This document shows positions 14,391 through 35,976 of a stretch of 43,139 bases of DNA, in pieces. The position numbers were made by a program, and so were the translations under genes. The stretch is from the NCBI RefSeq assembly GCF_004762035.2, contig NZ_SIJK02000042.1, forward strand, positions 1 through 43,139, given 5' to 3'. Below the pieces are notes generated by a model. It was not told the DNA's origin. It was given only the letters and a program-made list of their open reading frames with translations, and searched no databases. This DNA comes from Candidatus Chloroploca mongolica (GTDB lineage Bacteria > Chloroflexota > Chloroflexia > Chloroflexales > Chloroflexaceae). How positions within the stretch are numbered: position 1 is the first letter of the stretch; the number at the start of each line of letters is the position of its first letter.

Positions 14391-14465
14391 GTCTGCGGCC
14401 CCCAAGAAGATCGCTTGTGCTGGTGCAAACGGCCAGCTTCGCTGGCCGTTTGCACCAGCACAAGC
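14391..14465. repeat. Composite hairpin element, copy 1 (25-bp perfect stem)
   Basis: Arms at 14413-14437 and 14441-14465 are perfectly complementary over 25 bp around a TTC loop, with apex GGCCAGC-TTC-GCTGGCC. Immediately left is a GC-rich module (14391-14412, GTCTGCGGCCCCCAAG...) that recurs beside copy 2. The preceding GGGGG and following CCCCC can also pair. No T-run follows the large stem. It lies between a TATAAT at 14351-14356 and the gene at 14515. The remaining gene-free bases here (14236-14514) show nothing else convincing. Confidence 0.9.
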
Positions 14466-14514
14466 ATAGATTTTAATGAATATGTCAACGAAGTTTTGAG
14501 AAAGTTAGACAGGT

Positions 14515-15873
14515 ATGACAGCTCAGAGAACAATTCCAGGCATGATTCTGCTCATCGTCGTTATGCTGATAAGCCTGTACGTCCAACCATCCCGCGTCTA
14601 CAGTGACGTCGCAGAAGCGCCCGGCCTGATTGACCGCGAACTCATTGGAATGGTCGTACGCGATCCCTGGTACGACTTTAACGCCAATCCGATTTTTCCC
14701 AACGAGGTCGATTCTGTTGCCCAGGATCGTATGGGACAGGAACTGGCCGCTGCGGGGGTACGCTGGGTACGCCTCGAATTCATTATTGACGAACAGGTAG
14801 GGAGTGTTGAAGAGAATCTGGCCCGGTACGACTATTTCCTTACCCAGGTAGCCCCACGCTACAATCTCAAGGTACTAGGCTTGCTCGGGTTTGCCCTGGT
14901 GATCAATGTCGATCCGCGCCACCCCGAGTATGGCCTGGTTGTCGCGGGGAGCATTGATGCCAATTATGGCGGAGGCGTCAATGGCTACATGCGCACCTGG
15001 CTTGATCGGGCGCTCACGATTGCGACGCGTTACGAAGGACAGATTCATGCGTACCAGATCCTCAACGAACAAAATCGGCTGCCTGTCTCGCCAGGGCAAT
15101 TTGGCGGTGGTGAGGGGCTCGATCCGGTACTGATAGGGCGGCTGCACACCAAATTCTACCGTTGCTTCAAACGCAACGAATGCGCCTTCACCTCACTTGA
15201 TCCGGCCTGGCGTGAAGGCCTTGACATCGTTTCCGGCGGCTTGCATCCTCGTGGCAGCGAACGGCTCTTGCCCAGCAATCGCATCCAGATCGACGCTAAG
15301 CCTATCAGCGACATCGCCTATCTCCTCGAACTCTTTGCCACCGAACCGTTTCGCGACTATTTTCTTGCCAACGGGCGGTATCCGCTTGATGGACTAGGGT
15401 ACCATCCCTATCCAGTCGAAATCGTCACCACCCTGGCCACCATTGAAAGTGATGTGGCCCGCATGAACCAGCGGCTGAACGAGGTACGCACAGCCCTCAC
15501 CAATGGCGCAAGCCCAGCAGGTGCCAGCGTGCCCTTCTGGATCACCGAGGTGGGCTACAATGTCGCCTACAGTCGCCAGACCATCGCAGGCCAGAGTCTC
15601 TTCCTCCGAACGGTCTTTCTGCAACTGGCTCAGCGCGATGATCTGGCCCGCATCTTCTGGTTCAAATACGAAGATTTCCCGCCAGCCGAGGGGCCCAATG
15701 CCCAGCAATGGGGTATCGTGCATATCCCATTCACCGAGGATAGCCGTTGTCCCGGAGGGGCATGTTACCTCCCTGGCGGGGAACCAGCCTACCGACGGCC
15801 ATCCTTCTGGGCCTTGCGTGAATTAGCGGGGCTTCCCGTATATCGAACCTATCTGCCGTTACTACGGCGGTAA
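14515..15873 (+). CDS. Secreted clan GH-A glycoside hydrolase-like protein
   Basis: A 452-residue exported protein. A hydrophobic segment at residues 9-23 (GMILLIVVMLISLYV) serves as signal peptide or anchor. The rest reads as a TIM-barrel glycosidase of clan A: RWVRLEF on an early strand, YQILNEQN near residue 184 (the Asn-Glu acid/base pair) and PFWITEVGYN near residue 344 (nucleophile Glu). No exact family (GH5, GH39 or similar) can be set. The start has only a weak ribosome site (AGACAGGT). Flanking composite hairpins isolate it from its neighbours on both sides. Confidence 0.8.
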   Translation: MTAQRTIPGMILLIVVMLISLYVQPSRVYSDVAEAPGLIDRELIGMVVRDPWYDFNANPIFPNEVDSVAQDRMGQELAAAGVRWVRLEFIIDEQVGSVEENLARYDYFLTQVAPRYNLKVLGLLGFALVINVDPRHPEYGLVVAGSIDANYGGGVNGYMRTWLDRALTIATRYEGQIHAYQILNEQNRLPVSPGQFGGGEGLDPVLIGRLHTKFYRCFKRNECAFTSLDPAWREGLDIVSGGLHPRGSERLLPSNRIQIDAKPISDIAYLLELFATEPFRDYFLANGRYPLDGLGYHPYPVEIVTTLATIESDVARMNQRLNEVRTALTNGASPAGASVPFWITEVGYNVAYSRQTIAGQSLFLRTVFLQLAQRDDLARIFWFKYEDFPPAEGPNAQQWGIVHIPFTEDSRCPGGACYLPGGEPAYRRPSFWALRELAGLPVYRTYLPLLRR

Positions 15874-15906
15874 AAGCCGAGGGCATGCGGCGCGCAAAAA
15901 GCTTAA

Positions 15907-16007
15907 CTGCGCTGGTCGAACAAGCGAGCAAGGCTCGCTTATTCGACCAGCGCAGAGCAGGGTTGAGGGCGTCAGCCCTAAAGATCCGCAGCCCCCAGGA
16001 GATTGCC
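15907..16007. repeat. Composite hairpin element, copy 2 (23-bp stem plus module)
   Basis: Arms 15907-15929 and 15933-15955 pair over 23 bp with one mismatch around an AAG loop (apex GCGAGC-AAG-GCTCGC). Next comes GAGGGCGTCAGCCCT (15965-15979), a short hairpin with a GTCA loop, then GATCCGCAGCCCCCAGGAG (from 15983), which aligns with the module of copy 1. It directly follows the glycosidase-like gene. Confidence 0.85.
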
Positions 16008-16037
16008 CTGGCATGCGAACAGGTGAAGAGGTATAAT
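16008..16037 (+). promoter_or_regulatory. Promoter of the 143-aa gene
   Basis: CTGGCA (16008-16013) and a perfect TATAAT (16032-16037) are 18 bases apart. The start point near 16044 lies after the in-frame ATG at 16042 and supports the ATG at 16111. Confidence 0.5.
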
Positions 16038-16110
16038 CACTATGATCACCAATGGCAAGCCACATGTGCATCAGCATCATGCTCGTGTATGCCTGGAAAG
16101 TAATGTATGT

Positions 16111-16542
16111 ATGGACACCACCATTGCCGATCAGCTTGCCCATCGGCTAAGCCAAGAACATGCCCTCATTTGTCAGCGTGTTGCGACACGTATGCTGGAT
16201 AGGTTTCCAGAACTAAAACGGTCGCTGCGCCTCGAAGAGAACTACTCGCCTATCGAGCGACTCTCGGAGGTCGCTGTTGAACGGTTAAATGAACTGGTGC
16301 GTTCCGTCTTGCTCTTTGATCTCCCCTCGCTGGCCGATAATGAACTCGAGTGGGCCTCGGGGGTTTTGCCACGTCGTGGCGTTACCTTTGAACATCAAGA
16401 TGCGATGGTACGCTGGTTCTTCGAAGAAGTGCGCCAACTCCCACTTAGCGAAGCCGAACAGGCGATCATCATCACAACCGAGCAACATTTTTTGCGTGCG
16501 CTCTATCACGCCTACGGCAAGGAGCTACAGGAACAAACCTGA
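16111..16542 (+). CDS. Small all-helical protein, possible RsbRD_N-like domain
   Basis: A 143-residue soluble protein (MDTTIADQLAHRLSQEHALI...) predicted almost entirely helical. The order of helices (QEHALICQRVATRMLDRFPEL, then VAVERLNELVRSVLLFD, then FEHQDAMVRWFFEEVRQL) is reminiscent of the RsbRD N-terminal regulatory domain, but the match is weak. There are no enzymatic motifs. A longer frame begins at 16042, but the promoter makes that start unlikely. It stands alone between two hairpin elements. Confidence 0.65.
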   Translation: MDTTIADQLAHRLSQEHALICQRVATRMLDRFPELKRSLRLEENYSPIERLSEVAVERLNELVRSVLLFDLPSLADNELEWASGVLPRRGVTFEHQDAMVRWFFEEVRQLPLSEAEQAIIITTEQHFLRALYHAYGKELQEQT

Positions 16543-16566
16543 AGCCGTATCGCGCAGAACATGATC

Positions 16567-16615
16567 GGCTGTACGCACCAGAGGCCAGCTTTGCTGGCCT
16601 CTGGTGCGTACAGCC
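16567..16615. terminator. Long hairpin, copy 3, between convergent genes
   Basis: Arms 16567-16589 and 16593-16615 are perfectly complementary over 23 bp with a TTT loop and apex GGCCAGC-TTT-GCTGGCC. It sits between the ends of the 143-residue gene (plus) and auracyanin (minus), so it could end both transcripts, although no T-run follows on either side. It belongs to the same family as the elements at 14413 and 34820. Confidence 0.75.
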
Positions 16616-16639
16616 AAGTCGGATTATCGTTCCCCAAGC

Positions 16640-17137
16640 CTACTGGACGATCAACGTCCCCTGCATGATTGGGTAATGTCCAGGAACCGTACAGATATAG
16701 AGATATGTACCAGGCGAAGGGGCAGTGAAGGTGACCGAACCCGACTCACGACCATTGAGCACGCCCGTATGAGCAATGATCTTTGAACGATCGGCGGGCA
16801 AATACTCGCCCTGCAAGCCAGCCAAAATCCCAGCCTCGGCAATCGGACGCGAGACATCTTCACCGCCATCAACGAGTACCCAGTTGTGCTGTTGCGCAAT
16901 AGAGGTATTTTGGAAGTTGAGCGTCACCACTTGACCTGCTTCGACGGTAAGCGTGGTTTTATCAAAGGCGAGCATTTCACCATCAGAAGCAAGATCAATC
17001 GTCACACCATCACCTGCCGTACCCGTACGCCCACCGCCACTGCCCTCAGTAGAACTTTCACGCCCACCACAGGCCGCCAGCAAAAGGGCCAACCCCAGCA
17101 CCAAGACAACGCTCAGAGAGCGCACCAAGCTCTTCAT
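16640..17137 (-). CDS. Auracyanin-A-like blue-copper lipoprotein
   Basis: A 165-residue lipoprotein. Residues 1-23 form a signal peptide ending in the lipobox LAAC. A Gly/Ser-rich linker leads to a cupredoxin domain. Copper ligands are visible: His in QQHNWVLVDGG and the Cys, His and Met of YICTVPGHYPIMQG. The QHNWVLV...SGSVTFTAP.PGTYLYICTVPGHY pattern is that of auracyanins, the membrane-bound electron carriers between the alternative complex III and the reaction centre in Chloroflexales. AGAAGG precedes the ATG. It starts 20 bases after efp and has no promoter of its own visible. This gene is the best evidence for a phototrophic host. Confidence 0.93.
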   Translation of the reverse strand: MKSLVRSLSVVLVLGLALLLAACGGRESSTEGSGGGRTGTAGDGVTIDLASDGEMLAFDKTTLTVEAGQVVTLNFQNTSIAQQHNWVLVDGGEDVSRPIAEAGILAGLQGEYLPADRSKIIAHTGVLNGRESGSVTFTAPSPGTYLYICTVPGHYPIMQGTLIVQ

Positions 17138-17157
17138 CGTGAACCTTCTTCTAGATC

Positions 17158-17727
17158 CTAGACCCGCTCAATATACTCACCACTCCGGGTATCAATCTTC
17201 AAGCGATCGCCCTCATTGACAAACCCAGGCACCTGGATCACCGCCCCCGTCTCGAGCGTAGCCGCCTTGGTCACATTGGTTGCCGTATCACCGCGCACCG
17301 CAGTCGTCGTCTCGACGACTTCCAGTGCGACAAAGATCGGCAACTCAACGCCCAGCAAGACCTCACGGTCGGCATCATAGACGAGATCAGCATTATCGTT
17401 CTCTTTGAGGAAACGAGCCGCATCACCCATCATAGCTTCCGTAACAGGGATCTGATCGAAGGTACTGTTATCCATAAAAATCAAACTTTCGCCCTCGCGA
17501 TAGAGATACTGCATGGGCCGACGTTCAATCCGCACAATATCAATATCAGCCCCGGCGCGCAAGCGATCTTCCATCACCTTGCCATTATTAAGATTCTTCA
17601 GCTTGACACGCACAAAGGCACGCCAGTTGCCTGGCGCGACATGCTGAAATTCCACCACCTGAAAGAGGTCATTGTTGTAACGAATGACCATACCATTGCG
17701 CAAATCAGTTGTTGTTCCAGCCGCCAT
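17158..17727 (-). CDS. efp: Translation elongation factor P
   Basis: A 189-residue, full-length EF-P with the three expected beta-barrel domains (DLRNGMVIRYNNDLFQVVEF, the central MQYLYREGESLIFMDN and the C-terminal GAVIQVPGFVNEGDRLKIDTRSGEYIERV). EF-P binds the ribosome E site and relieves stalling at polyproline. The loop that normally carries the modified Lys or Arg reads HVAPGNWRAFVRV here, with Asn at the usual modified position. AAAAGGAG precedes the ATG. Auracyanin follows 20 bases downstream. Confidence 0.95.
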   Translation of the reverse strand: MAAGTTTDLRNGMVIRYNNDLFQVVEFQHVAPGNWRAFVRVKLKNLNNGKVMEDRLRAGADIDIVRIERRPMQYLYREGESLIFMDNSTFDQIPVTEAMMGDAARFLKENDNADLVYDADREVLLGVELPIFVALEVVETTTAVRGDTATNVTKAATLETGAVIQVPGFVNEGDRLKIDTRSGEYIERV

Positions 17728-17774
17728 CAGAAACTACTCCTTTTAAGGATATGAAGCTCTTTTTCAATAGTACC

Positions 17775-17803
17775 ACTATAGCCGGGGTCTGCGTTCTCGG
17801 CAA
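17775..17803 (-). promoter_or_regulatory. Promoter of efp-auracyanin
   Basis: Minus strand TTGCCG (17803-17798), 17-base spacer, TATAGT (17780-17775). The start point is near 17768, about 40 bases before the efp ATG. A TTGCCG -35 also appears at the bactofilin promoter. Confidence 0.65.
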
Positions 17804-17816
17804 GTTTTGGGTGAGG

Positions 17817-18533
17817 CTAGTAGAGCGACCCCACGACTTCGACGCCATTTTGCGCCAGATGGTGCAAAAAGAGCAGATGGTGCAAGTCACCATCATGCGC
17901 CATAATGCCGAGTTCATGCGCCACCTCTACGGGGGTATCAAAGGTATCGACCGTGGCGGCAGCCACCAAGACGCGACGCTGACGATTCAAGGCATTCGCT
18001 TCTAAACGCAAATGCATTGCGGCACTGTAGATACAGAGATCGGTGCAATCGCCCACGATAATGAAGGTTTCCAACGCGGGACGCTGGTCGAGCCACGCTT
18101 GAAATGTCGTGCCCAGGTGCGAACTGAGCGAATTTTTGGCAATGACCGTCATTTCATCGGCAAAAGGAAGCGCAGCGAGCTCGACGATCGTCTGGCTCTC
18201 TGCGGTGCCAGCGATGCAATGCGGCGGGTAGGCCGCAAACTCGGGAGCCTGCGGATCGTGGGTGTCCTGGGTCAAGACAAGGTTGCGCACCCCAAGCGCA
18301 TGCACACGCTGCATCAAGGCCGCCACTGGTTCGCTCAAGGCGGCGACCCGCGGCCCACTCAACGGGCCTGCTTTGCAAAAGCCGTTGATCATATCAACCG
18401 AAAGAACCATCACTCGCTCGGGCTGTGTCCCGATCACCTCGGCCAACGCAACTGTCGGTAAGGTCGCATACCACTGCTCGAGATAGCGGAGAAATTGGGC
18501 CGACCGTTCCGTCAAATGGGTCATTGTTGGCAT
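17817..18533 (-). CDS. Isochorismatase-fold cysteine hydrolase (nicotinamidase-like)
   Basis: A 238-residue hydrolase. The catalytic triad of the family is in place: Asp in LSVDMINGF, Lys in VIAKNSLSS and Cys in GDCTDLCIYSAA. TQDTHDPQAPEFAAYPPHCIAGT matches the metal-binding loop of nicotinamidases. It probably deamidates a small amide such as nicotinamide, though other amidohydrolase activities are possible. AAGGAGA precedes the ATG at 18533; an upstream in-frame ATG at 18566 has no such site. An operator overlaps its promoter. Confidence 0.85.
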   Translation of the reverse strand: MPTMTHLTERSAQFLRYLEQWYATLPTVALAEVIGTQPERVMVLSVDMINGFCKAGPLSGPRVAALSEPVAALMQRVHALGVRNLVLTQDTHDPQAPEFAAYPPHCIAGTAESQTIVELAALPFADEMTVIAKNSLSSHLGTTFQAWLDQRPALETFIIVGDCTDLCIYSAAMHLRLEANALNRQRRVLVAAATVDTFDTPVEVAHELGIMAHDGDLHHLLFLHHLAQNGVEVVGSLY

Positions 18534-18574
18534 CGTATCTTCTCCTTGAGGCTGGGCAAACCTCATGTAATTGA

Positions 18575-18597
18575 ATTAGTGTAAATACGACACTAAT
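18575..18597. promoter_or_regulatory. Operator: inverted repeat over the hydrolase promoter
   Basis: ATTAGTGT (18575-18582) and ACACTAAT (18590-18597) form a perfect 8-bp inverted repeat with a 7-base spacer. The right half overlaps the -10 box of the minus-strand promoter and the left half covers its start point, the standard place for a repressor. The factor is unknown. Confidence 0.7.
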
Positions 18598-18623
18598 ATA
18601 CCAGGAGAGGCGAGCTTTGTCAA
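18595..18623 (-). promoter_or_regulatory. Promoter of the isochorismatase-fold hydrolase
   Basis: Minus strand TTGACA (18623-18618), exactly 17 bases, then TATATT (18600-18595). Strong match; overlapped by the inverted repeat at 18575-18597. Confidence 0.75.
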
Positions 18624-18630
18624 GTGAATA

Positions 18631-18639
18631 TGGTATACT
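18631..18639 (+). promoter_or_regulatory. Extended -10 promoter of the aminotransferase gene
   Basis: TGGTATACT at 18631-18639 is an extended -10. Initiation near 18646 would be only about four bases before the ATG at 18650, giving a nearly leaderless mRNA. No good -35 is seen at standard spacing. Confidence 0.4.
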
Positions 18640-18649
18640 GGGAAGCACT

Positions 18650-19813
18650 ATGATCAGCAATGCAACGATAATCGCAACCGAACAGCAGCACACATCGGGG
18701 CTCTATCCCAAGCGTGGCGTAGCACTGATACGTGGCGAAGGGGCGCGGCTTTATGATGCGGATGGCCGGGTCTACATTGATTGTGTTGGCGGGCAAGGGG
18801 CGGCCAATCTGGGCCATTGCCATCCGGCGGTAGTCGCTGCGATCCAGGCTCAGGCAGCAACCCTGATGAGTTGTCCCGAGATCTTTTACAACGACCAGCG
18901 CGCTGCGTACTTGCAGGCACTCGCGGGTGTGCTGCCCTTTCCGGCACGGATCTTCCTCTGCAATTCAGGGGCCGAAGCGATCGAGGCAGGCCTCAAGTTT
19001 GCCCGCCTTCTGAGCGGTCGCCACGAGGTGGTCGCGACGATGCGAGGGTTCCATGGGCGTACGATGGGTGCGCTCAGTGCAACCTGGGAACCAAAGTATC
19101 GCGAGCCTTTTGCGCCGCTCGTGCCTGGCTTTGCCCACGTGCCCTATGGCGATGCCGAAGCCCTGGACAACCGGGTCAATGCGTCTACCGCAGCGGTCTT
19201 GCTTGAGCCAGTCCAGGGAGAGGGGGGGGTGCGCCCCGCCCCGGCAGGCTATCTTGAGGCAGCGCGTACGATCTGTGATCGTCACGGGGCCTTGTTACTG
19301 ATTGATGAAGTGCAGACAGGCTTTGGCCGAACTGGGCGGCTCTTTGCGCTTGAACATAGTGGGGTTGTGCCCGACATCCTGTTGCTCGCCAAAAGCATTG
19401 CGGCAGGGTTGCCGATGGGGGCCGTCGCCATCCACGAACGCCACGGGAGTCTGCCGGGCGGGGCGCATGGCACCACCTTTGGGGGCAATCCGCTGCTCTG
19501 TGCTGCGGCCCACGCAGCCCTGCAGGCCTACCACGATGAAGACCTGCCGCGCCAGGCAGCCGAGAAAGGGGCATGGTTGCTTGATCGGCTGACTGCTTTG
19601 CACTTACCGCCGGTCCGTGAAATCCGGGGCCTTGGCTTGCTGGTTGGACTTGAATTGAAAACCCGGGTGCAACCCTACCTCCAGGCACTCCTTGATCAGG
19701 GTGTGCTCGCCTTGCCCGCAGGCCCCAATGTACTGCGCCTGTTACCCCCTCTGGTCATTGGTTACGACGACCTCGAACAGGTCATCGCAGCGCTACAGAC
19801 GGTGCTATCATAG
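18650..19813 (+). CDS. Class III aminotransferase, ArgD/LysJ type
   Basis: A 387-residue PLP enzyme. It has EQQHTSGLYPKRGVALIRGEG at the N terminus, CNSGAEAIEAGLKFAR for phosphate binding, MRGFHGRTMGALSATW, LLIDEVQTGFGRTG (PLP Asp) and LLLAKSIAAGLPMG with the Schiff-base lysine near residue 246. This pattern is that of acetylornithine aminotransferase or the LysW-aminoadipate-semialdehyde aminotransferase of lysine synthesis; the two cannot be separated here. An in-frame TTG at 18617 overlaps the divergent promoter, so the ATG is preferred. The exopolyphosphatase gene follows 14 bases later. Confidence 0.88.
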   Translation: MISNATIIATEQQHTSGLYPKRGVALIRGEGARLYDADGRVYIDCVGGQGAANLGHCHPAVVAAIQAQAATLMSCPEIFYNDQRAAYLQALAGVLPFPARIFLCNSGAEAIEAGLKFARLLSGRHEVVATMRGFHGRTMGALSATWEPKYREPFAPLVPGFAHVPYGDAEALDNRVNASTAAVLLEPVQGEGGVRPAPAGYLEAARTICDRHGALLLIDEVQTGFGRTGRLFALEHSGVVPDILLLAKSIAAGLPMGAVAIHERHGSLPGGAHGTTFGGNPLLCAAAHAALQAYHDEDLPRQAAEKGAWLLDRLTALHLPPVREIRGLGLLVGLELKTRVQPYLQALLDQGVLALPAGPNVLRLLPPLVIGYDDLEQVIAALQTVLS

Positions 19814-19827
19814 AAATCGGATCGCAG

Positions 19828-21333
19828 ATGCAAAAGATCGGCATTATTGATCTTGGATCGAACACGACCCGTCTCATTGTGATGGCCTATGAGCTAGAAC
19901 GATGCTTTCGCCTGGTTGACGAAGTGAGCGAAGTCGTCCGCCTTGCCGAAGGTGTCGGCGCCACGGGCAGGCTTCAACCAAAACCTATTCGGCGGGCCGT
20001 GGTTGCCCTCAGCATGTTTGAAACCCTCTGCCGCCGCACGGGGGTGGATCAGGTCATTGCCGTGGGTACCAGCGCCATCCGGGAAGCCGCGAATCAGCAC
20101 GAGTTCTGGGATGCGCTGAGGGCTGAAACAACGCTTGACTTACGCATCATCAGCGCCCAGGAAGAAGCGTTTTACGGCTTTGTCGGCACGGCCAATGCGC
20201 TCGGCTTGCGCAATGGCTTCACATTTGACACTGGTGGCGGCTCGACTCAAGTTGTGGCCGTGCGCAATGGGCAACCAACCGAGACCTATTCGGTACAGGC
20301 TGGCGTAGTGCGGTTTACCGAGCGTTATGTCACCAGTGATCCGATCAGCAAACGCGATCTGCGCAACCTCCGCCAGGCTGCGCAAGAATCATTCGCAGGC
20401 CTGACATGGTTGCAAGCTCACCCCAATTATCGCCTGGCTGGGATGGGGGGAACTATTCGTACCCTGGCCCGGATTGACCAGAAACAGCGACAGTACCCAC
20501 TTGACCGGGTTCATGGATATCAGTTGAGTCGCGAAGCGCTGAGCAACATCATTGAAGTCTTAAGTCGCTCGAATCGGCGCGAACGCGAGCAGATTCCGGG
20601 GCTCAAAACCGATCGCACTGATGTCACCCTGGCCGGAGCGATCATCATTGAACAACTGATGATGTGTGGACGCTTTGAGAGCCTGACGGTCAGCGGTCAG
20701 GGCGTGCGCGAGGGGCTTTTCTATGCCCATTTCCTGCAGGGCATTGAACCGCCACTGCTCAATAATCCCCGAACTTTTAGCATCAAAAACCTGGCCCGCC
20801 TGAGCAACTATGAAGAGGCCCACTGCGACAAGGTTGGTTCGCTGAGCCAGAGTCTCTTTGATCAACTCGCCCCATTGCACAGCTACGGGGCCTGGGAACG
20901 TGAATTACTTGGATATGCCGCGATCATTCATGACATCGGCGTAGCCGTTGGCTATTACGACCATCACAAACACAGCGAATATCTAGTGTATAACGGAACC
21001 TTGCTTGGCTTCACCCATCGCGAGATTGCCATTCTTGGGGCGCTGGTGCGCAACCATCGCAAAGGTCAGGCTGATCTCTCGCCGTATGCCCAAATTTTCG
21101 CAGCCGATGATAGTCAGCGCATTGCCCGGCTGAGTTCGCTGTTACGCATTGCCGAGTATCTGGAACGCAGCAAAAGCCAGGTCGTCCGAGCGGTGCGCGT
21201 TGAACTGGGCGAAAGCATCCGTATCGTGGTTGAAGCTGATGGCGATGCCTCGGTTGGCATCTGGGATGCCAACCGGCGCACCGGCCTCTTTCGCAAAGCG
21301 TTCGAACGCGACGTTGAGATTGTGCAGGGCTGA
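19828..21333 (+). CDS. ppx: Exopolyphosphatase / Ppx-GppA family
   Basis: A 501-residue phosphatase. The N-terminal actin-like ASKHA fold shows GIIDLGSNTTRLIV, AVGTSAIREAAN, the FTFDTGGGSTQVV phosphate loop and RLAGMGGTIRTLA. The C-terminal half has an HD-type domain (IIHDIGVAVGYYDHHKHSEYLVYN). It removes terminal phosphates from polyphosphate or converts pppGpp to ppGpp. It is co-transcribed with the aminotransferase (14-base gap). Confidence 0.93.
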   Translation: MQKIGIIDLGSNTTRLIVMAYELERCFRLVDEVSEVVRLAEGVGATGRLQPKPIRRAVVALSMFETLCRRTGVDQVIAVGTSAIREAANQHEFWDALRAETTLDLRIISAQEEAFYGFVGTANALGLRNGFTFDTGGGSTQVVAVRNGQPTETYSVQAGVVRFTERYVTSDPISKRDLRNLRQAAQESFAGLTWLQAHPNYRLAGMGGTIRTLARIDQKQRQYPLDRVHGYQLSREALSNIIEVLSRSNRREREQIPGLKTDRTDVTLAGAIIIEQLMMCGRFESLTVSGQGVREGLFYAHFLQGIEPPLLNNPRTFSIKNLARLSNYEEAHCDKVGSLSQSLFDQLAPLHSYGAWERELLGYAAIIHDIGVAVGYYDHHKHSEYLVYNGTLLGFTHREIAILGALVRNHRKGQADLSPYAQIFAADDSQRIARLSSLLRIAEYLERSKSQVVRAVRVELGESIRIVVEADGDASVGIWDANRRTGLFRKAFERDVEIVQG

Positions 21334-25817: not shown

Positions 25818-25852
25818 AAGCTCTGGCCTGTATGACAGGCCAGAGCTTTTTT
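25818..25852 (+). terminator. Rho-independent terminator after acpP
   Basis: AAGCTCTGGCCTGT (25818-25831) and ACAGGCCAGAGCTT (25835-25848) form a perfect 14-bp stem with an ATG loop, followed by a T-run to 25852. It closes the fabG-acpP run and sits before the convergent cupin gene. Confidence 0.93.
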
Positions 25853-28660: not shown

Positions 28661-29290
28661 CTATGGGGCAAGACGAACGATCTGCCAACCCTGAGCCATG
28701 CGTTGATAGAGGATCCGGTCGTGCAAGCGACTCGGACGGCCTTGCCAAAATTCCAACTGATCGGGGGTGACTCGATAGCCACCCCAGAAGGAAGGGCGTG
28801 GCGGATCTTGGGTGTGGAATTGTTGAGCCACCGCATTGAAACGGGCATCAAGTTCAGCGCGATCAGCGACTACCTGGCTCTGGGGTGAAGCCCAGGCCCC
28901 GAGGCGCGCAGCAAGGGGCCGTTCGGCGAAATAAGCATCTGATTCAGCAGCGTCAAGACGGGTGACCGTGCCTTCGATCCGAATTTGGCGCTCGAGGTCA
29001 GTCCAGTAAAAGATGAGTGCGGCCAGACCGGAAGCATCGAGGGCCTGTGCTTTACGACTGGCATAATTGGTAAAAAAGGTAAAACCAGCCTGATCAAAGC
29101 TTTTCATCAAGACAATGCGCGCCGAGGGGCGACCATCACGATCAACCGTCGCCAACGTCATCGCATTTGGTTCACGGAGACCTGAGGCAATGGCATCATC
29201 GAACCAGCGTTGGAACTGCATGATTGGATCAGCCGCAACTTCATGTTCGGCTAACCCACGCAGGGTATACTCTTTACGTAGCTCTTGCAT
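28661..29290 (-). CDS. pdxH: Pyridoxamine 5'-phosphate oxidase
   Basis: A 209-residue FMN enzyme that makes pyridoxal 5'-phosphate, the cofactor of HemL and the aminotransferases here. It begins [23 protein letters not shown] and shows [42 protein letters not shown] and [22 protein letters not shown] with the C-terminal [10 protein letters not shown]. All are standard PdxH blocks. No ribosome site is obvious. Confidence 0.96.
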
Positions 29291-29310
29291 CGGTAAAAAC
29301 CCGTGGTTAT

Positions 29311-29333
29311 GAGATTTCTGGGGCCGCAGACGC
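29311..29333 (-). repeat. Partial GC-rich module related to the composite elements
   Basis: The minus strand reads GTCTGCGGCCCCAGAAATC, close to the module of element copy 1 at 14391 (GTCTGCGGCCCCCAAGAAG). No long hairpin is attached here. Confidence 0.4.
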
Positions 29334-29366
29334 TCTGCGTATTACGGTCGGGGCTGCCCCTTCCAT

Positions 29367-29395
29367 AGTATACCCCAGGATAATCCGAGTTGCAG
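29367..29395 (-). promoter_or_regulatory. Possible pdxH promoter
   Basis: Minus strand CTGCAA (29395-29390), 17 bases, TATACT (29372-29367). Its -35 bases are the same six used in reverse by the plus-strand promoter at 29390-29418. Confidence 0.45.
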
Positions 29396-29418
29396 AGGGC
29401 GCGTGGCTGCCGTACAAT
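29390..29418 (+). promoter_or_regulatory. Promoter of the GT4 gene
   Basis: TTGCAG (29390-29395), 17-base spacer, TACAAT (29413-29418). Start near 29425, leader about 43 bases. Confidence 0.6.
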
Positions 29419-29467
29419 GGCGCGGCGCTATGCGAGCGCTCTATAGTAGGAATCGTGATAGCCTGTT

Positions 29468-30682
29468 ATGCTGCAGACCATTCTTATGCTTGCCTCGACG
29501 AGTTTCTTCTCAGATTATGGCAACCATGTGCGCATCTGGGAAGAGGTACGGGCCATTCAACGCCGCGGCCATCGGGTAATCCTGGCAACCTATCATAACG
29601 GCGATAATATGCCCGGGCTTGATATTCGACGTTCGTGGGATGTGCCCTGGATCAAACGCGCCGTGGTCGGTTCTTCGCGCCACAAACTCTATCTTGATGT
29701 TGGTCTGGCCTGGCGCGCACTGCGGGTGGCTTTCCAAGAGCGTCCGACCATTATTCACGCCCATACACACGAGGCTGCCGCGCTTGGCTTGCCCCTGCAG
29801 CGGCTGTTGAAGGTTCCGCTGATCCTCGATTATCAGGGGAGCATGACCAGTGAGATGCTCGATCACGGCTTTTTACGGAAGACGAGCCCCCTCTATCTGC
29901 CACTCGTACGGCTCGAACGACTGCTTGATCAACAGGCTGATGCCGTCCTGACCTCCACCCATAATGCGGCTGAACTGTTGCGGCGCGATGGGAGCCTGAC
30001 CGACGACCGGTTGCATGCCGTTCCTGATGGGGTTGACACCGAGCGATTTCGCCCCTACGATCATTCGTCGGCCTGGGCTGCTCAACGGCATGAGTTACGG
30101 CAACAACTGGGCATTCCCGACGGGCGACGGATTGTGGTCTATATTGGACTGCTTGCCCCCTATCAAGGAACGAACGTCTTGATTGATGCCGCACGCCTCC
30201 TCGTTGCCCGTCGTCCCGATGTTCATTTTTTGATTATGGGCCATCCTGATCCGCAGAGTTACCGTCGTTACGCGGCGAGTCTGGGCATCGAGCACCACGT
30301 CACCTTGCCTGGACGGATTATCTACCGTGATCTGCACAGCTACCTGGCCCTTGGTGAGCTTGCCGTGGCACCCAAGATGAGTCTGACCGAAGGCAATGGC
30401 AAGATCGCAAACTATATGGCAATGGGCCTGCCAACCGTTGCATTTGAGACACCGGTCGCTCGCGAAATCCTGGCCGACACAGGCATCTATGCGCGCCACG
30501 GCAGCGCCGAAGATCTGGGGGTCAAGCTTGAACGATTGCTTGATGAGCCAGAGCTTGCTGCCAGGCTTGGCCAGGCGGCCCGTGAACGTGCCGTGGCGGC
30601 ATTGTCCTGGGATCGCGCCGCCCAGCAGATCGAAGCAATCTACGCCAAGGTGCAAGCGTCGCGCACAACGAAACTGGTATAA
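29468..30682 (+). CDS. Glycosyltransferase family 4 protein
   Basis: A 404-residue GT-B fold glycosyltransferase. The N-terminal acceptor domain has ASTSFFSDYGNHVRIWEEVRAIQRRGHRV; the middle has TSTHNAAELLRR...AVPDGVDTERFRP. The C-terminal donor domain shows VVYIGLLAPYQGTNVLIDA, LIMGHPDP and the E-x7-E region KMSLTEGNGKIANYMAMGLPTVAFE. It transfers a sugar from a nucleotide donor, likely to an envelope glycan or lipid. The acceptor is unknown. Confidence 0.88.
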   Translation: MLQTILMLASTSFFSDYGNHVRIWEEVRAIQRRGHRVILATYHNGDNMPGLDIRRSWDVPWIKRAVVGSSRHKLYLDVGLAWRALRVAFQERPTIIHAHTHEAAALGLPLQRLLKVPLILDYQGSMTSEMLDHGFLRKTSPLYLPLVRLERLLDQQADAVLTSTHNAAELLRRDGSLTDDRLHAVPDGVDTERFRPYDHSSAWAAQRHELRQQLGIPDGRRIVVYIGLLAPYQGTNVLIDAARLLVARRPDVHFLIMGHPDPQSYRRYAASLGIEHHVTLPGRIIYRDLHSYLALGELAVAPKMSLTEGNGKIANYMAMGLPTVAFETPVAREILADTGIYARHGSAEDLGVKLERLLDEPELAARLGQAARERAVAALSWDRAAQQIEAIYAKVQASRTTKLV

Positions 30683-30683
30683 T
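30675..30683 (+). promoter_or_regulatory. Extended -10 before the TaqI-like domain gene
   Basis: TGGTATAAT (30675-30683) overlaps the stop codon of the GT4 gene. Initiation near 30690 gives a leader of about 100 bases that contains the inverted repeat at 30701-30766. Confidence 0.45.
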
Positions 30684-30700
30684 AGAATCATCCCAACGGG

Positions 30701-30766
30701 TTTGTAAAAGTGTTTGTGTGCTTGCTTACGGCTACGCTGCGCGCAACCACACAGCACCTTTACAAA
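30701..30766. repeat. Imperfect inverted repeat, degenerate hairpin-family member
   Basis: TTTGTAAAAGTGTTTGTGTG (30701-30720) pairs imperfectly with the sequence ending TTTACAAA at 30766. The interior holds GCTACGCTG, the same nine bases found at the apex of the perfect hairpin at 32335-32377. Confidence 0.5.
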
Positions 30767-30792
30767 TGCTTTAAGAAGGCGATAGATCTGTT

Positions 30793-31680
30793 ATGCATGA
30801 TAAAACGTTACGTCACACGCCTGGCATAGAGCGCTTGTATCATGGGCTTGAGCCAGCGCTCGCAGCAAGCCTCAGTATCGACCGGGCCACACGGGATCGT
30901 CTGGTTATCTTTGATCCAGCGTCGGCACCGCTGCTGCGGCCTCTGATACGCGCTGAAGCGGTGTTGCCGTGGCGGGTTCGAGCAGAACAGCGCTGGATCA
31001 TCGCGATTCCAGCGTCACAGGCCACAACGATACACCAGTACACGGCGCTGGCGCGTCATCTGGATAGCCTGACGCCGCCACGAGAAGAGGCAGGCGCGGC
31101 GCCCCCCTGGTGGATTCTTCCTGATGAGGCCGTACGTCCAGTTGCGGCACCACGCATTCTTGTGCATGAGGATAAGGCAACCGTTGCCTGGGATGACACG
31201 ACGGCCCTGATCGCCGGGCCGACCCAGATCATCGCGGATGCCGACCCCTTCTGGCTGGCATGGATCGGATCGGCAACCGGGCAGGCTGCGCTGCGCAAGG
31301 GAATCTCGCTGGCAGCATTGCAGATTCCCGAGGTACCAGGGCCAACCCAGGGCAACCTTGCGGGTCTCGCCCTTGAAGCAGCACATCTCGCCTCACAGAT
31401 TGATGAATTAGAAGAGGCCGTCTTGCGGCGCATCCTGGCCGACTTTGGCCCACCGGGGCGACAACCAGGCCCGCGTTTGCTTCGCTGGTGGCTGCTCGAT
31501 TTTGAGCACTTGCACGAGGCGGTGCTTGATGAATTGAGAAATGACATCCCCGAGCGCTACCGGCCTACGTGGGAACAGATCCATCATGACCAGCGGACAA
31601 CGCACGAAAAGGCGAGCGCACGCCTTGGCACGATCATTGAGGCCATCAATACCCAGGTAGCTGCGCTAGTCGAGAGCTAA
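30793..31680 (+). CDS. Orphan TaqI-like specificity-domain protein
   Basis: A 295-residue soluble protein without methyltransferase or nuclease motifs. LLRPLIRAEAVLPWRVRAEQRWIIAIP followed by TALARHLDSLTPPREE and, later, PRILVHEDKATVAWDDTTALIAGPTQII, FWLAWIGSATGQAAL resemble the target-recognition (TaqI C-terminal) domain of type IIG restriction-modification enzymes. In that family the domain is normally fused behind an N6-adenine methyltransferase; none is in this window. It may be a remnant or a DNA-binding protein reused for something else. The ribosome site is weak (AGAAGG at long spacing). Confidence 0.6.
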   Translation: MHDKTLRHTPGIERLYHGLEPALAASLSIDRATRDRLVIFDPASAPLLRPLIRAEAVLPWRVRAEQRWIIAIPASQATTIHQYTALARHLDSLTPPREEAGAAPPWWILPDEAVRPVAAPRILVHEDKATVAWDDTTALIAGPTQIIADADPFWLAWIGSATGQAALRKGISLAALQIPEVPGPTQGNLAGLALEAAHLASQIDELEEAVLRRILADFGPPGRQPGPRLLRWWLLDFEHLHEAVLDELRNDIPERYRPTWEQIHHDQRTTHEKASARLGTIIEAINTQVAALVES

Positions 31681-31698
31681 GCGCCATACCTTGCAAAT

Positions 31699-31741
31699 AA
31701 AACCTTTTTTTGACGCAAAGGCGCAAAGGCGCAAAGGTTTT
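31699..31741. repeat. CGCAAAGG tandem repeat flanked by inverted AAAACCTTT
   Basis: Three exact CGCAAAGG units lie at 31714-31737. AAAACCTTT (31699-31707) and AAAGGTTTT (31733-31741) flank or overlap them as inverted repeats. This dispersed motif is known from many bacterial genomes. Confidence 0.75.
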
Positions 31742-31796
31742 CGTGTAGGTGCGCTAACCCTGAGATGAATTGCGCAAAGACCAGATCCCGTAGCTA

Positions 31797-31805
31797 TGCT
31801 ATCAT
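31797..31805 (+). promoter_or_regulatory. Extended -10 promoter of the Rrf2-family gene
   Basis: TGCTATCAT at 31797-31805 with initiation near 31812, a 35-base leader. The nearest -35-like TTGCGC (31770) is too far for standard spacing. Confidence 0.4.
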
Positions 31806-31846
31806 AGAAAGAGCTACACGGAAAAATCGAGCCAAGAAGTGAGACA

Positions 31847-32287
31847 ATGCGTATTTCAAGCAAGGGTGATTATGGCCTGCGGGCACTCTTTGATCTGGCC
31901 CAGCAATATGGCAAAGGTCTTGTGCAGAGCGAAGAAATTGCCACCCGTCAGGGGATTCCGGTCAACTATTTGAATCAGTTACTGATCACGATGCGACGCG
32001 CCGGCTTGATCGAAAGCCTCCGCGGGCCACAGGGCGGCCATATGCTCGCACGTGCCCCTGAGACGATCAATCTCTTTGAGATCCTGACCGCGCTTGAAGG
32101 CCCACTGTTGCCTGATGAACCAACACGTGAGGATCTGGCGCCTACTATGCCTGAGGATCACGAAGTAGTGAGTGAAGTGTGGGTCGATCTACGCACGCGT
32201 ATGGAACGGATGCTCCGCGAAACGACGCTTGATGATCTCTGTCAGCGCAAGCGCCAGCGCACGGGCAATGTTATGTATTATATTTAG
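31847..32287 (+). CDS. Rrf2-family transcriptional regulator
   Basis: A 146-residue winged-helix regulator. The protein begins MRISSKGDYGLRALFDLAQQYG; QSEEIATRQGIPVNYLNQLLITMRRAGLIESLRGPQGGHMLAR is the DNA-binding domain and wing. IscR and NsrR ligate an iron-sulfur cluster through three cysteines after the wing; here that region has none, the only cysteine being near residue 134 (DDLCQRK). So it is a CymR/thiol or apo-type member rather than an Fe-S sensor. A hairpin terminator follows. The divergent or neighbouring hem genes are possible targets, which is inference. Confidence 0.9.
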   Translation: MRISSKGDYGLRALFDLAQQYGKGLVQSEEIATRQGIPVNYLNQLLITMRRAGLIESLRGPQGGHMLARAPETINLFEILTALEGPLLPDEPTREDLAPTMPEDHEVVSEVWVDLRTRMERMLRETTLDDLCQRKRQRTGNVMYYI

Positions 32288-32334
32288 CCTCCGGCTGGGG
32301 TTTTGGGGGCATAGCTCTGCCCAAGGAGTCTTTT

Positions 32335-32377
32335 GTGCCGTAAAAAAAGCCAGCTACGCTGGCTTTTTTTACGGCAC
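32335..32377. terminator. Long hairpin, copy 4: bidirectional terminator
   Basis: Arms 32335-32354 and 32358-32377 are perfectly complementary over 20 bp around TAC. The apex is GCCAGC-TAC-GCTGGC, and the stem contains seven A then seven T, so each strand shows a GC-rich hairpin plus T-run. It lies between the converging rrf2 gene and hemL. A second short hairpin (GCAGGC-GGAG-GCCTGC, 32392-32407) follows, as in the other composite elements. Confidence 0.85.
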
Positions 32378-32415
32378 AGAGCGAGGGCTTGGCAGGCGGA
32401 GGCCTGCGGTGCAAC

Positions 32416-33732
32416 CTAACCCTTCAAGACCTCGCGGGCGGCGTCGAGTGTACGTGCGACATCTTCGTCGGTGTGGGCGGCGCTGATGAAGCCCGCTTCG
32501 AATTGCGAGGGGGCCAGGTAGACACCGCGTTCGCACATTGCCCAAAAGAAACTGGCGTAACGGGCCGGATCGACCATCTGCTTGGCGTCGGCGTATGAAC
32601 GCACGTGAAGGCCGGGTTCTTTGAGGAAGTAGAAACCAAACATGGTGCCGACCTGGCCGACTTGCAAGGGAACGTCCAGTTCTTCACCGATCTTCCGCAT
32701 ACCGTCGGCGAGCGCCCGCGCCCGCTCCTCGGCCTGCGCAAAGGGGCTTGCCTGTTCATCACCGTGGGTGCCAAACGCGGTCTGCAACGTCGCCAGGCCC
32801 GCCGCCATCGCTAGCGGGTTGCCCGAGAGGGTGCCAGCCTGATACATCGGGCCAGCCGGCGCAACCTGCTGCATGATTTCGCGCCGCCCGGCATAGGCGC
32901 CGACCGGCAAGCCGCCCCCAATCACTTTGCCGAGACAGGTGAGATCCGGTTTCAGGCCCCAAAGGCCCTGGGCACCACCGGGGGCCACCCGGAAACCGGT
33001 CATTACTTCATCGAGGATCAGCAAGGCACCGTAGCTGTGGGCGAGTTCAATCAACCCTTCGAGGTAGCCCGGTTCGGGAAGGACAAAGCCCATGTTCGCC
33101 GCAATCGGCTCGACGATGATGGCGGCGATCGCGTTGCCCTGTTCGCGGAAGATCGCGGTGGCCGCCTCGAGATCGTTGTATTCGGCGGTCAGCGTGTTCG
33201 CCGCGGCGCCTGCGGTGACGCCAGGGCTATCAGGGAGGCCCAGCGTTACGACGCCTGAGCCAGCCTGAACGAGCAGCATATCGGCATGGCCATGATAGCA
33301 TCCGGTAAACTTGAGGAGCTTTTCGCGCCCGGTATAGGCGCGCGCCAGCCGCAAGGCGCTCATCGTCGCCTCGGTGCCCGAATTGACGAAGCGTACCTGC
33401 TCGATCCCTGGCATGAGCTTGATGACCTCTTCGGCAAGCTCGGTCTCCTGCTTGGTCGGGGCACCAAAACTTGTGCCGTGCGCCGCCTGCATGGCAATCG
33501 CTTTGACAACAACCGGGTGGGCATGGCCCAGCAAGAGCGGCCCCCACGAGAGTACATAGTCGAGGTAGCGATTACCATCAACATCGGTGAGCCATGGGCC
33601 CGCGCCGCTGGCAAAGAAGATCGGGGTGCCACCAACCCCGCGAAAGGCGCGTACGGGCGAATTGACTCCACCAGGAATCACCTGCTGCGCGGCGGCAAAG
33701 AGCTCTTGCGAGCGCGTGTAGCGTTCAGACAT
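32416..33732 (-). CDS. hemL: Glutamate-1-semialdehyde 2,1-aminomutase
   Basis: A 438-residue PLP enzyme that rearranges glutamate semialdehyde to 5-aminolevulinate. [22 protein letters not shown] opens it; [37 protein letters not shown] and [17 protein letters not shown] with the catalytic lysine follow. It starts two bases after hemE and ends the minus-strand hem run, next to the bidirectional terminator. Confidence 0.97.
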
Positions 33733-33734
33733 GA

Positions 33735-34775
33735 TCAGGCTTCTCCCGCATAACGATAGTTCTGCACAAACTCAACGAGGCGTGCGACGTGCTCTTCGGG
33801 GGTCTCGGTGATGATACCGTGACCAACATTGAAGATGTGGCCTGGACGGCCGGCGGCCTGATCGAGGATCGCTTTGGCTCGTCGCTCGATTTCAGGCCAG
33901 GGGGCATGCAGCGTCGTCGGGTCGAGATTGCCCTGGACGGCAACATCGTAGCCATACTGCGCCCATCCGTCGGCGAGCCTGATGCGCCAGTCAAGCCCAA
34001 GCACATCGGCCCCGGTCGCCCGCAGGAGGGGCAGCATGCCATTCATATCGGTGCCAAAATAGACGATCGGCACGCCGGTCGCTGCACGGGTTTCAGCGAC
34101 GGCCCGTTGCACATAGGGCAGCACATACTCGGCAAAATCGTCGGGGCTCAACGCGCCTGCCCACGAGTCAAAGATCTGCACCACATCGGCCCCAGCCCGA
34201 ACCTGCGCAATCAGATAGGCCACCACAAGATCGGTCAACTTCGTCATCAGCGTCTGCCACGAGGCCGGGTCGCGATACATCATAATCTTGGTACGCCGAT
34301 ACTCACGGCTGCCACCGCCCTCAATCGCATAGCTCGCCAGCGTAAAGGGGGCGCCACTGAAGCCAAAGAGCGCCGTTGTTTCGGGAAGCGCCGCCCGGAC
34401 GATCCGCAACGCTTCGAGGGTATACCCAGAAGCCGCCTCGGGCTCGTACGGTCGCAGCGCCGCAATATCAGCCGGTACCCGAATAGGATTATGGATAACG
34501 GGGCCTTCACCCTTCTCAAAAGTCAACTGCAAGCCCAACCCCTCGAGGGGGGGGAGAATATCGGCAAAAATAATTGAGGCGTCCATGCCAAACGCCTCGA
34601 TCGGCTGCAACGTCACCTCAGCAGCCACATCGGGTTGCTTGACCATCTGGAGAAAACCGTGGCGCTCGCGCACCGCCCGATAGACCGACATATAGCGTCC
34701 GGCTTGGCGCATCAGCCAGATTGGAGTGCGTTCGACCGGCTCACGCCGACACGCACGAATGAGTAGCCTGGTCAT
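33735..34775 (-). CDS. hemE: Uroporphyrinogen decarboxylase
   Basis: A 346-residue cytosolic enzyme that makes coproporphyrinogen III. The active-site [11 protein letters not shown] motif and the catalytic Asp in [14 protein letters not shown] are present, with [19 protein letters not shown] and the C-terminal [32 protein letters not shown] precedes the ATG. A 25-bp hairpin separates it from hemB upstream. Confidence 0.97.
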
Positions 34776-34794
34776 GTGGTGTCCTTTATTTTTT

Positions 34795-34872
34795 GAGGGC
34801 TGACGCCCTCAAAACCTATGCTTTCACTGGCGAAAACAGCCAGCGAAGCTGGCTGTTTTCGCCAGTGAAAGC
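34795..34872. repeat. Composite hairpin element, copy 5 (between hemB and hemE)
   Basis: Arms 34820-34844 and 34848-34872 pair perfectly over 25 bp around GAA; apex GCCAGC-GAA-GCTGGC. A second hairpin GAGGGC-TGAC-GCCCTC lies at 34795-34810, the reverse of the GAGGGC-GTCA-GCCCT module of copy 2. On the transcribed (minus) strand the big hairpin comes first, then the small one, then a T-poor run into hemE. Confidence 0.9.
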
Positions 34873-34884
34873 AAAAACGAAAGA

Positions 34885-35904
34885 TTAGCCCCCGGCGCGG
34901 AGCCATCCTACGGCATCTTTTGCCCAGTAGGTGATGATCATATCGGCCCCGGCCCGTGTGATCGAGGTGAGGCTTTCCATAGCGACGCGGCGTTCGTCAA
35001 TCCAGCCACGCTCGGCAGCGGCTTTGACCATGCTGTATTCGCCGCTCACCTGGTAGGCGGCCAGCGGTAGATCAAAGTTGGCACGGACTTTGCTGATAAT
35101 ATCGAGGTAGGCGAGGGCCGGTTTAACCATGAGCATATCGGCCCCTTCCTCGACATCAAGGCGCACTTCGCGCAGCGCCTCGCGGGCATTGCCCGGATCC
35201 ATCTGGTACTGGCTGCGATCGCCAAAGCCGGGAGGGCTCTCGGCGGCGTCACGGAAGGGACCGTAGAAGCCCGAGGCATATTTGGCGGCGTAGCTCATGA
35301 TCGCTGTATTGATCAGGCCAGCCCCGTCGAGTGCCGTACGGATCGTGTGGATCATGCCGTCGATCATGCCCGAGGGGGCGATGACATCAGCCCCAGCCTG
35401 CGCATGAACGACCGACGCCTTTGCGAGAAGCTCAAGCGTTGCATCGTTCAGCAGATAGCCTTCACTCTCGTGCTCGTCATACCCAGGGACGCCCGGCTGG
35501 TTGATGAGGCCGCAATGGCCGTGGTCGGTATACTCGCAGCAGCACATATCCGAAATCACGATCAGCTGCGGCACGGCCTGCTTGATCGCATAAGCCGCCT
35601 GCGGAACAATGCCCTCGGGATCAAAATTCTCGCTGCCACATGCATCTTTGTGGTTTGGAATGCCAAAGAGCAAAACTGCTGGCAAGCCAAGTTCCGCAAG
35701 CGCCTCGGCTTCACGGACGGCCCGATCAACCGACAGTTGCGCGTGCCCGGGCATTGAACCAATCGGGCGACTCACGCCTGTCCCATGGCGAATAAAGAGT
35801 GGCGCGATCAACTGATCAACCCGGACAGTCGTCTCACGCACCATCCGGCGCAGGGCATCTGTCCGCCGTAAGCGGCGCGGGCGAATGTGGGGATATCCAG
35901 CCAT
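34885..35904 (-). CDS. hemB: Porphobilinogen synthase (5-aminolevulinate dehydratase)
   Basis: A 339-residue TIM-barrel enzyme that condenses two 5-aminolevulinates. [18 protein letters not shown] opens it; the zinc triad appears as [14 protein letters not shown]. Catalytic lysines lie in [16 protein letters not shown] and [23 protein letters not shown] precedes the ATG. The gene sits between two hairpin elements within the hem run. Confidence 0.97.
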
Positions 35905-35929
35905 GCGGTGAACCTTTCTTGAGGTACTG

Positions 35930-35976
35930 TTCGCTAGTCGAACAAATCAGCTACGCGGGCTTGTTCGACTAGCGAA
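35930..35976. repeat. Hairpin element, copy 6, overlapping the hemD end
   Basis: Arms 35930-35951 and 35955-35976 pair over 22 bp with three mismatches near a TAC loop. On the minus strand the outer arm encodes the last residues of HemD (...FR) and its TAG stop, so the element has been absorbed into the gene's end. It lies between hemD and hemB. Confidence 0.8.

Follow-up and report, generated by a model that had tools for sequence, protein, structure and literature searches.

Several described systems come close to the long intergenic hairpins treated here, which lie in a 43,139-bp stretch of the genome of Candidatus Chloroploca mongolica, one of a group of filamentous photosynthetic bacteria (contig NZ_SIJK02000042.1; hereafter the window). 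Bidirectional Rho-independent terminators, as described for TransTermHP (PMC1852404; all papers are cited here from extracts), likewise follow stop codons, are enriched between tail-to-tail genes and carry A- and T-tracts able to pair; in the Chloroploca hairpins, however, pairing runs 10-20 bp past the tracts, the T-tract is often weak and near-perfect stems are changed pairwise from species to species. Quasipalindrome correction in E. coli, by which an imperfect inverted repeat is made perfect through nascent-strand copying, is known from reporter mutations (PMC7202029), whereas in Chloroploca it is read from species divergence at many natural sites. Template switching is stated to leave compensatory changes of several bases, lengthened stems and loops inverted in full as its footprints, and a compensatory change together with a loop inversion has been called the strongest possible support for the process (Monttinen and Loytynoja 2022, PMC8794818); in the rRNA data of that study the combination was found in 6 cases, with no enrichment over simulation, and loop inversion alone in 69 cases, with enrichment. 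The Chloroploca hairpins show both paired changes beyond independence and in-place loop inversion, but here a single genus and 100 comparisons of 3-nt loops yielded 25 inversions, 13 of them alongside compensatory changes; the loci are terminator-like and the spectrum is rich in transversions.

Other systems share part of these properties. The perfect inverted repeats surveyed in 118,019 genomes (PMC13155455) are also enriched after genes, with spacers that vary more than arms near terminators; according to the extract, which does not treat paired changes or loop inversion, arms at terminators are less polymorphic and spacers of 4 bp are preferred in Bacteria, whereas the Chloroploca loops are mostly of 3 nt and the arms diverge about as much as their flanks. 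Repetitive extragenic palindromic (REP) sequences of the GTAG and CGTC super-families (PMC3733652) are short, multi-copy and 3' of genes as well, but more than half of the Chloroploca stems lack a common consensus (the repeat around the hairpin at 14413 is an exception), and no Y1-transposase gene was found flanked by the hairpins. Finally, the coding palindromes of Nematomorpha mitochondria (PMC6649704) are perfect inverted repeats with coding arms, up to 284 bp long and inside genes, while those of Chloroploca mostly measure 15-30 bp and lie at gene ends.

On the basis of the data presented below we infer, with a probability of about 0.6, that the hairpins are mostly bidirectional terminators whose arms would be maintained and rewritten by DNA template switching, both the termination and the switching during replication being read from sequence. 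The ingredients, namely bidirectional terminators, quasipalindrome correction and template-switch hairpins, are known; what appears to be new, among the matches listed, is that they come together in hairpins this dense and with loops so often inverted. No earlier description of these hairpins was found in the open-access literature among the matches listed, judged by titles and abstract openings, and the main text of the B7-9/Kir15-3F genome paper contains none of the terms 'hairpin', 'palindrom' and 'terminator'. The matter bears on the old question of how both sides of a stem pair come to change without passing through a broken intermediate: template switching was proposed earlier from reconstructed rRNA and microRNA histories, in which a paired change with a flipped loop is very rare, and the frequent paired transversions and flipped loops of these close species could bring the process within reach of direct measurement, in populations or in mutation-accumulation experiments. 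In addition, covariation in bacterial 3'-end hairpins may stem from DNA copying, and would by itself be no proof of RNA selection.

The hairpins of the window and their genome-wide abundance

The six long, near-perfect hairpins that the initial annotation had reported in the window are real. Five are as described, that at 15907 with a single mismatch, while the sixth, at 35930, is weaker and has an imperfect apex.

14413..14465, no strand assigned: hairpin with 25-bp perfect arms, loop TTC and a CCAGC apex
15907..15955, plus strand: hairpin with 23-bp arms, one mismatch, apex GCGAGC and loop AAG, 3' of the stop of the open reading frame (ORF) 14515-15873
16567..16615, no strand assigned: hairpin with 23-bp perfect arms, loop TTT and a CCAGC apex, between the convergent ORFs 16042-16542 (plus) and 16640-17137 (minus)
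32334..32378, no strand assigned: hairpin with 21-bp perfect arms, loop TAC and a CCAGC apex followed by T7
34819..34873, minus strand: hairpin with 26-bp perfect arms, a CCAGC apex and loop GAA, 3' of hemB (34885-35904, minus) and 5' of hemE (33735-34775, minus)
35930..35976, minus strand: hairpin whose outer stem pairs perfectly over 16 bp, with its arms 15 nt apart and an imperfect, poorly paired apex

The predicted RNA folding energies of the six range from -27.2 to -52.1 kcal/mol (z -7.2 to -13.0), and the whole window holds no Rfam match at the gathering threshold. The four CCAGC-apex hairpins have the loops first given for them, and all four stems, not three, are fully complementary.

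When the genome and its relatives were searched with the apex pattern, as had been suggested, copies were found genome-wide. CCAGCN3GCTGG occurs 258 times in the genome of the window (G000), against 25 occurrences of a reversed control pattern, and 234 and 226 times in two further Chloroploca genomes (G001 and G002), the control amounting to 25-28 over the three. Whole hairpins were counted in the 0.70 Mb of G000 that were read (about 11% of the genome), where 110 have an arm score of at least 15; the first 443 kb sampled contain 83 of score at least 12. A 144-kb contig carries 25 hairpins of score at least 12, compared to none in five second-order Markov simulations, and these simulations and the reversed-apex control exclude a chance origin. 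Outside the genus, density controls were limited to one E. coli stretch, hemB neighbourhoods and small samples of relatives: the 50-kb E. coli stretch has no hairpin of score at least 15, and 76 hemB neighbourhoods from mixed taxa, among them other Chloroflexales, have 13 hairpins in 740 kb.

Within the 0.70 Mb, 97 hairpins of score at least 15 have a 3-nt loop, and 52 of these have a CCAGC or near-CCAGC apex. The consensus is GCCAGC-N3-GCTGGC, then a T-rich stretch and then further pairing; at right-arm positions 9-11 from the loop, T reaches 0.53-0.56 and A 0.09-0.12 (68 hairpins), and, the arms being complementary, each strand carries such a T-rich stretch. At 75% identity 28 of the 52 CCAGC-apex stems are singletons, and 13 belong to a loose family resembling GCGTATGCTGGCGAAAACGGCCAGC that takes in the window hairpins at 14413 and 34819. 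This family and the shared T-rich stretch rule out stems without any common sequence, so that the earlier observation that most stems differ is right and the statement that they have nothing in common below the apex is wrong. For a set of 44 unlinked CCAGC hairpins from a single genome, pairing holds in 98.2% of the cells and the covariation score is 0.834, against 0.168 after shuffling; the comparison is partly circular, the rows having been picked for pairing, and we therefore relied on orthologues instead.

Paired stem changes and inverted loops between species

The comparison of orthologous intergenic regions, which had also been proposed, set hairpins of score at least 16, anchored by their flanks, against the corresponding sites of the congeners, the three genomes being that of the window, C. 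asiatica and Khr17. The three genomes share branches, so the counts are not independent events; moreover, only the query hairpins had been selected for pairing, so that the counts lean towards breaking changes, that is, against an excess of paired ones. Specifically, 188 of 271 query-target cases could be anchored, with both arms homologous in 121 (mean flank identity 93.6%), neither in 64 and one only in 3. The 121 cases gave 2752 homologous pairs, of which 2371 were unchanged, 138 were changed on both sides and still paired, 14 were changed on both sides otherwise and 229 were changed on one side (171 breaking, 56 restoring and 2 other). Changes on both sides thus number 152, compared to 36.5 expected if the arms were independent, and gain, loss and replacement of whole hairpins were common as well. 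Three stems illustrate the pattern, each with at most one one-sided change per congener: C11:69034 differs at 2 pairs in C. asiatica and 3 in Khr17, C44:20631 at 4 and 9, and C11:47828 at 9 and 1, the homology of the stem being uncertain where 9 pairs differ.

In the 100 comparisons of 3-nt loops, 36 loops were the same, 25 reverse-complemented, 36 otherwise changed and 3 gapped, so that 25 of the 97 ungapped loops and 25 of the 61 changed loops are inverted, where chance was taken as 1 in 63. The 25 inversions derive from 21 query hairpins, some being one site seen from two genomes, and 13 are accompanied by paired stem changes. Template switching predicts loop inversion and RNA-level selection does not, which supports fold-back templating.

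Several window hairpins show these changes individually. At 14413, Khr17 has an inverted loop and one paired change, and the hairpin is absent from C. asiatica; at 15907, C. asiatica has a perfect hairpin with one paired change and Khr17 other sequence instead. The hairpin at 16567 has the inverted loop AAA in C. asiatica, with the outer part of one arm unpaired, and loop AAT in Khr17. That at 34819 is unchanged in Khr17, and the C. asiatica counterpart of that at 35930 differs at paired positions and has the opposite orientation relative to the flanks. A separate observation concerns the C. asiatica counterpart of hairpin 34819 (L044 6032-6064), where the apex is deleted, apparently between GCCAG direct repeats, and a 13-bp hairpin remains.

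At two sites an arm matches coding or single-copy flanking sequence. The hairpin at 32334 recurs in C. asiatica with an inverted loop and one paired change, and Khr17 has a different hairpin at that site. The outer arm of the Khr17 hairpin is homologous to sequence that closes the Rrf2-like gene and takes in the position of its stop codon; this sequence is present but unpaired in both congeners of Khr17, and the partner arm is absent from them. The other site is in Viridilinea, where the left arm of a hairpin between hemD and hemB consists of the last hemD codons (...VDGGT-stop, ...VAGGT-stop) and the stop codon overlaps the loop; three differences in the coding arm between V. mediisalina and V. 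halotolerans (GTAGAC versus GTTGCA) are mirrored in the non-coding arm. As a minor observation, a 55-bp unit adjoins the 32334 hairpin in C. asiatica, in at least 4 tandem copies (L044 8523-8739).

In the mechanism that we propose, the hairpin acted on has a short GC-rich apex stem with a three-base loop; below it an A-rich tract in one arm pairs with a T-rich tract in the other, and the pairing extends another 10-20 bp past the tracts. Replication or repair would switch template at the hairpin and copy one arm from the other, either by fold-back or between strands, in which latter case the loop would also be flipped. Such switching would rewrite the arms pairwise, invert loops and occasionally build a new arm from neighbouring DNA, and the long near-perfect stems may be owed less to stepwise selection than to this DNA process. 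The alternatives originally posed were selection for the hairpin or copying of one arm from the other; the inverted loops, the excess of paired and mostly transversional changes and the two sites just described favour copying, and selection alone is disfavoured.

Gene placement and the explanations compared

Gene calls were greedy longest ORFs and not an annotation. By these calls, 36 of the 110 hairpins of score at least 15 fall between convergent genes (82 gaps), 42 between tandem genes (186 gaps) and 11 between divergent genes (89 gaps), and 21 lie within an ORF or overlap one; the densities amount to 30.4, 16.2 and 6.1 per 10 kb of convergent, tandem and divergent gap, respectively (p 3e-7 for convergent versus divergent). 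The nearest upstream stop codon is at a median distance of 18 nt, and at no more than 40 nt for 63 of 78 hairpins. The window agrees with this, the hairpins at 16567 and 32334 (the latter flanked by convergent Rrf2 and class-III aminotransferase, hemL-like, genes) lying between convergent genes, and those at 15907, 34819 and 35930 lying after or across a stop codon; one arm of the last overlaps the 3' end of hemD (35969-36766, minus). The placement is that of terminators plus a minority of something else. Most of the hairpins are probably bidirectional intrinsic terminators, as judged from position and composition. The possibility raised at the outset, that they are ordinary terminators with random apices, thus holds in part: placement and T-richness are terminator-like, while the apex is not random and copies occur genome-wide. 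Absence of Rho as a reason for so many terminators is ruled out, since two matches to the Rho model lie above the cut-off.

Several observations weigh against the combination of terminator function and template switching. Eleven of the 89 intergenic hairpins lie between divergent genes, and a T-run of at least 4 is present in just 20 of 68. A consensus terminator scan of 13001-18000, which returned 10 sites against 4.7 expected, missed the hairpins at 15907 and 16567 and flagged only part of that at 14413, on the minus strand; the scan requires a T-run after the stem, and here the run is inside the arm. In tandem-gene hairpins, the first three pairs show 12 G-U against 6 A-C mismatches, as RNA selection would allow. 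The spectrum of the paired changes is a further difficulty: at position 3 and beyond they comprise 95 transversions and 41 transitions (n=136), compared to 78 and 112 among one-sided changes (p 3e-7), and plain copying of point mutations, which by an expectation of our own and not a published criterion predicts the ordinary share of transitions, does not account for this spectrum. The ratio of paired to one-sided changes does not rise steadily with arm score (1:29 at score 8, 2:13 at 9-10, 9:52 at 11-14, 17:36 at 15-18, 51:38 at 19-22 and 36:59 at 23 or more, after dropping 1, 1, 4, 12, 16 and 7 poorly aligned rows), and the short stems may be chance hairpins. Cases with one arm only are scarce, at 3 of 188, or 17 of 174 under another cut, mostly borderline (of reversed arms, used as a control, 8 of 188 came through at a cut of 0.5 and 3 of 174 at 0.6). 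In 64 of 188 cases neither arm is recognisable, so that wholesale gain, loss or replacement is also common. Lastly, the Khr17 case at the 32334 site is unrooted, and loss in the other two genomes is possible.

The nature of the paired changes can be further specified. By class, they comprise 41 transitions, 71 changes of the A:T-C:G type and 24 others, against 334, 196 and 134 in the flanks. When the A:T-C:G class was polarised by majority, 25 triples gave 12 changes towards C:G and 6 towards A:T. MutY-type repair of A-G mismatches in extruded hairpins was considered as a source of A:T to C:G changes and set aside, the cases being too few to claim it; no match to the MutY model lay above the cut-off, and two lay below.

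RNA-level selection alone, with terminators or 3'-end stabilisers whose pairing is kept by ordinary compensatory mutations, would account for the strong 3'-end placement, for the sites that retain a hairpin despite a differing stem and for the G-U majority among the apex mismatches, and some selection for the presence of a hairpin at these sites is very likely. As the whole explanation it is unlikely: it leads one to expect no reverse-complemented loops, the paired changes do not follow the G-U route, stem mismatches past the apex, read in the direction of transcription in tandem-gene hairpins, are 8 A-C and 2 G-U (counts pooled from three genomes, small and non-independent), and the divergence of aligned hairpins (0.109) is as high as that of their 30-bp flanks (0.099). 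Terminator selection explains where hairpins persist; it does not explain the inverted loops or the transversion excess. Ectopic gene conversion, in which stems are replaced from other same-apex hairpins of the genome, would fit paired changes that resemble random replacement (70% transversions) and the presence of another hairpin at the site in 28 of 57 directed comparisons with neither arm found. We consider it decidedly unlikely, given that just over half of the stems have no 75% relative within the 11% of the genome read, which leaves room for donors elsewhere, that the transversion excess is also seen where a comparison has just one paired change (20 A:T-C:G type, 8 transitions and 6 other) and that conversion alone does not explain loop inversion.

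The hairpin at 14413 lies within a dispersed repeat, a loose family exists among the CCAGC stems, the hairpins C44:23584 and C44:92467 are cleanly absent from one or both congeners, and G000 has three Y1-transposase matches above the cut-off; all this would suit a family of the REP type or of miniature inverted-repeat transposable elements, spread by a transposase and with stems diverging after insertion. Such an origin is nevertheless quite improbable for the hairpins at large, because more than half of the 52 stems sampled are singletons, no CCAGC hairpin of score at least 9 is found in the approximately 3.2-3.4 kb around the three Y1 matches, and paired divergence would still require copying or selection. 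A transposase-linked element was accordingly rejected as the main account. Misorientation of inverted-repeat loops by short-read assembly is a highly improbable source of the inversions. Where a hairpin arm reaches the length of the k-mer, assembly can place the loop in either orientation. According to the extract of its genome paper, the C. asiatica genome is an Illumina/SPAdes assembly, but its 150-bp reads (PMC6180586) exceed the length of the individual hairpins inspected. Furthermore, inversions among changed loops are no rarer at arm score 15-18 (9/16) than at 19-22 (4/18) or at 23 and above (6/16), the shorter classes giving 0/10 (8), 3/8 (9-10) and 4/17 (11-14), and about half of the inversions come with paired stem changes.

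Beyond terminators rewritten by template switching in Chloroploca, we put forward only tentatively a family-wide version, in which self-renewing terminators would have an apex that depends on the lineage, being CCAGC in Chloroploca and GGCGGC in some relatives, and that primes fold-back DNA synthesis, building and rewriting the arms, partly from 3' gene ends, with a mutagenic step favouring changes of the A:T to C:G type.

Relatives, dispersed repeats and further features

Hairpins of score at least 14 were counted in samples from relatives. The hemB neighbourhoods of two Viridilinea have 9 in 18 kb and G032 has 23 in 100 kb, some of the latter consisting of simple repeats; G036 has 6 in 60 kb, G005 5 in 80 kb, G028 2 in 44 kb, G037 1 in 40 kb and G044 1 in 24 kb, and none was found in 60 kb of G029 together with G033. 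CCAGC apices exceed the reversed control in some relatives outside the genus (for example 213 versus 22 in G005, 188 versus 39 in G032 and 132 versus 17 in G037), but such counts are not hairpin counts, as G005 itself demonstrates. A second apex, TGGCGGCN3GCCGCCA, is present in 29 of 61 genomes, with 237 and 345 copies in the two genomes of the genus g12, 249, 86, 33, 35 and 4 in the five of g5 and 18-21 in Chloroploca, against 0-1 for the reversed control in these genomes. The preferred apex depends on the lineage and varies even within g5. In G017 the reversed control GGTCGN3CGACC is itself frequent, with 165 copies against 30 of CCAGCN3GCTGG, and is perhaps another apex type.

Two further features were mapped in the window.

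25818..25848, no strand assigned: hairpin with 14-bp perfect arms and loop ATG, additional to the six first noted
14387..14474, plus strand: dispersed repeat, at most about 87 bp long, with the hairpin at 14413 as its core

The stem of the 25818 hairpin is identical in C. asiatica and Khr17. The repeat around 14413, which lies between the divergent ORFs 13969-14343 (minus) and 14515-15873, recurs in whole or in part at 27 places or more (16 in G001 and 11 in G002, one of them orthologous), the search having scored 40 of 390 and 40 of 424 candidates. The initial suggestion of an undescribed element, taken as a mobile one, is unsupported for most copies, although some, such as that at 14413, are dispersed repeats. 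One of the Y1 neighbourhoods has a 24-bp hairpin with another apex.

Other repeats were encountered in passing. A second dispersed repeat, at 31686-31761 of the window, has many matches in G001 and G002. A short repeat, L035 19293-19492, in tandem at some places, has dozens of matches in the same two genomes. A further repeat, starting GGGCGATTGCATC and ending GATGCAATCGCCC, with GGGCACCCGCAAGGGGTGCCC units, seems to split a hairpin arm in two of three species, the sites being near 83426 of C11 in G000 and near 82501 of a joined block (offset 120000) of C136 in G002.

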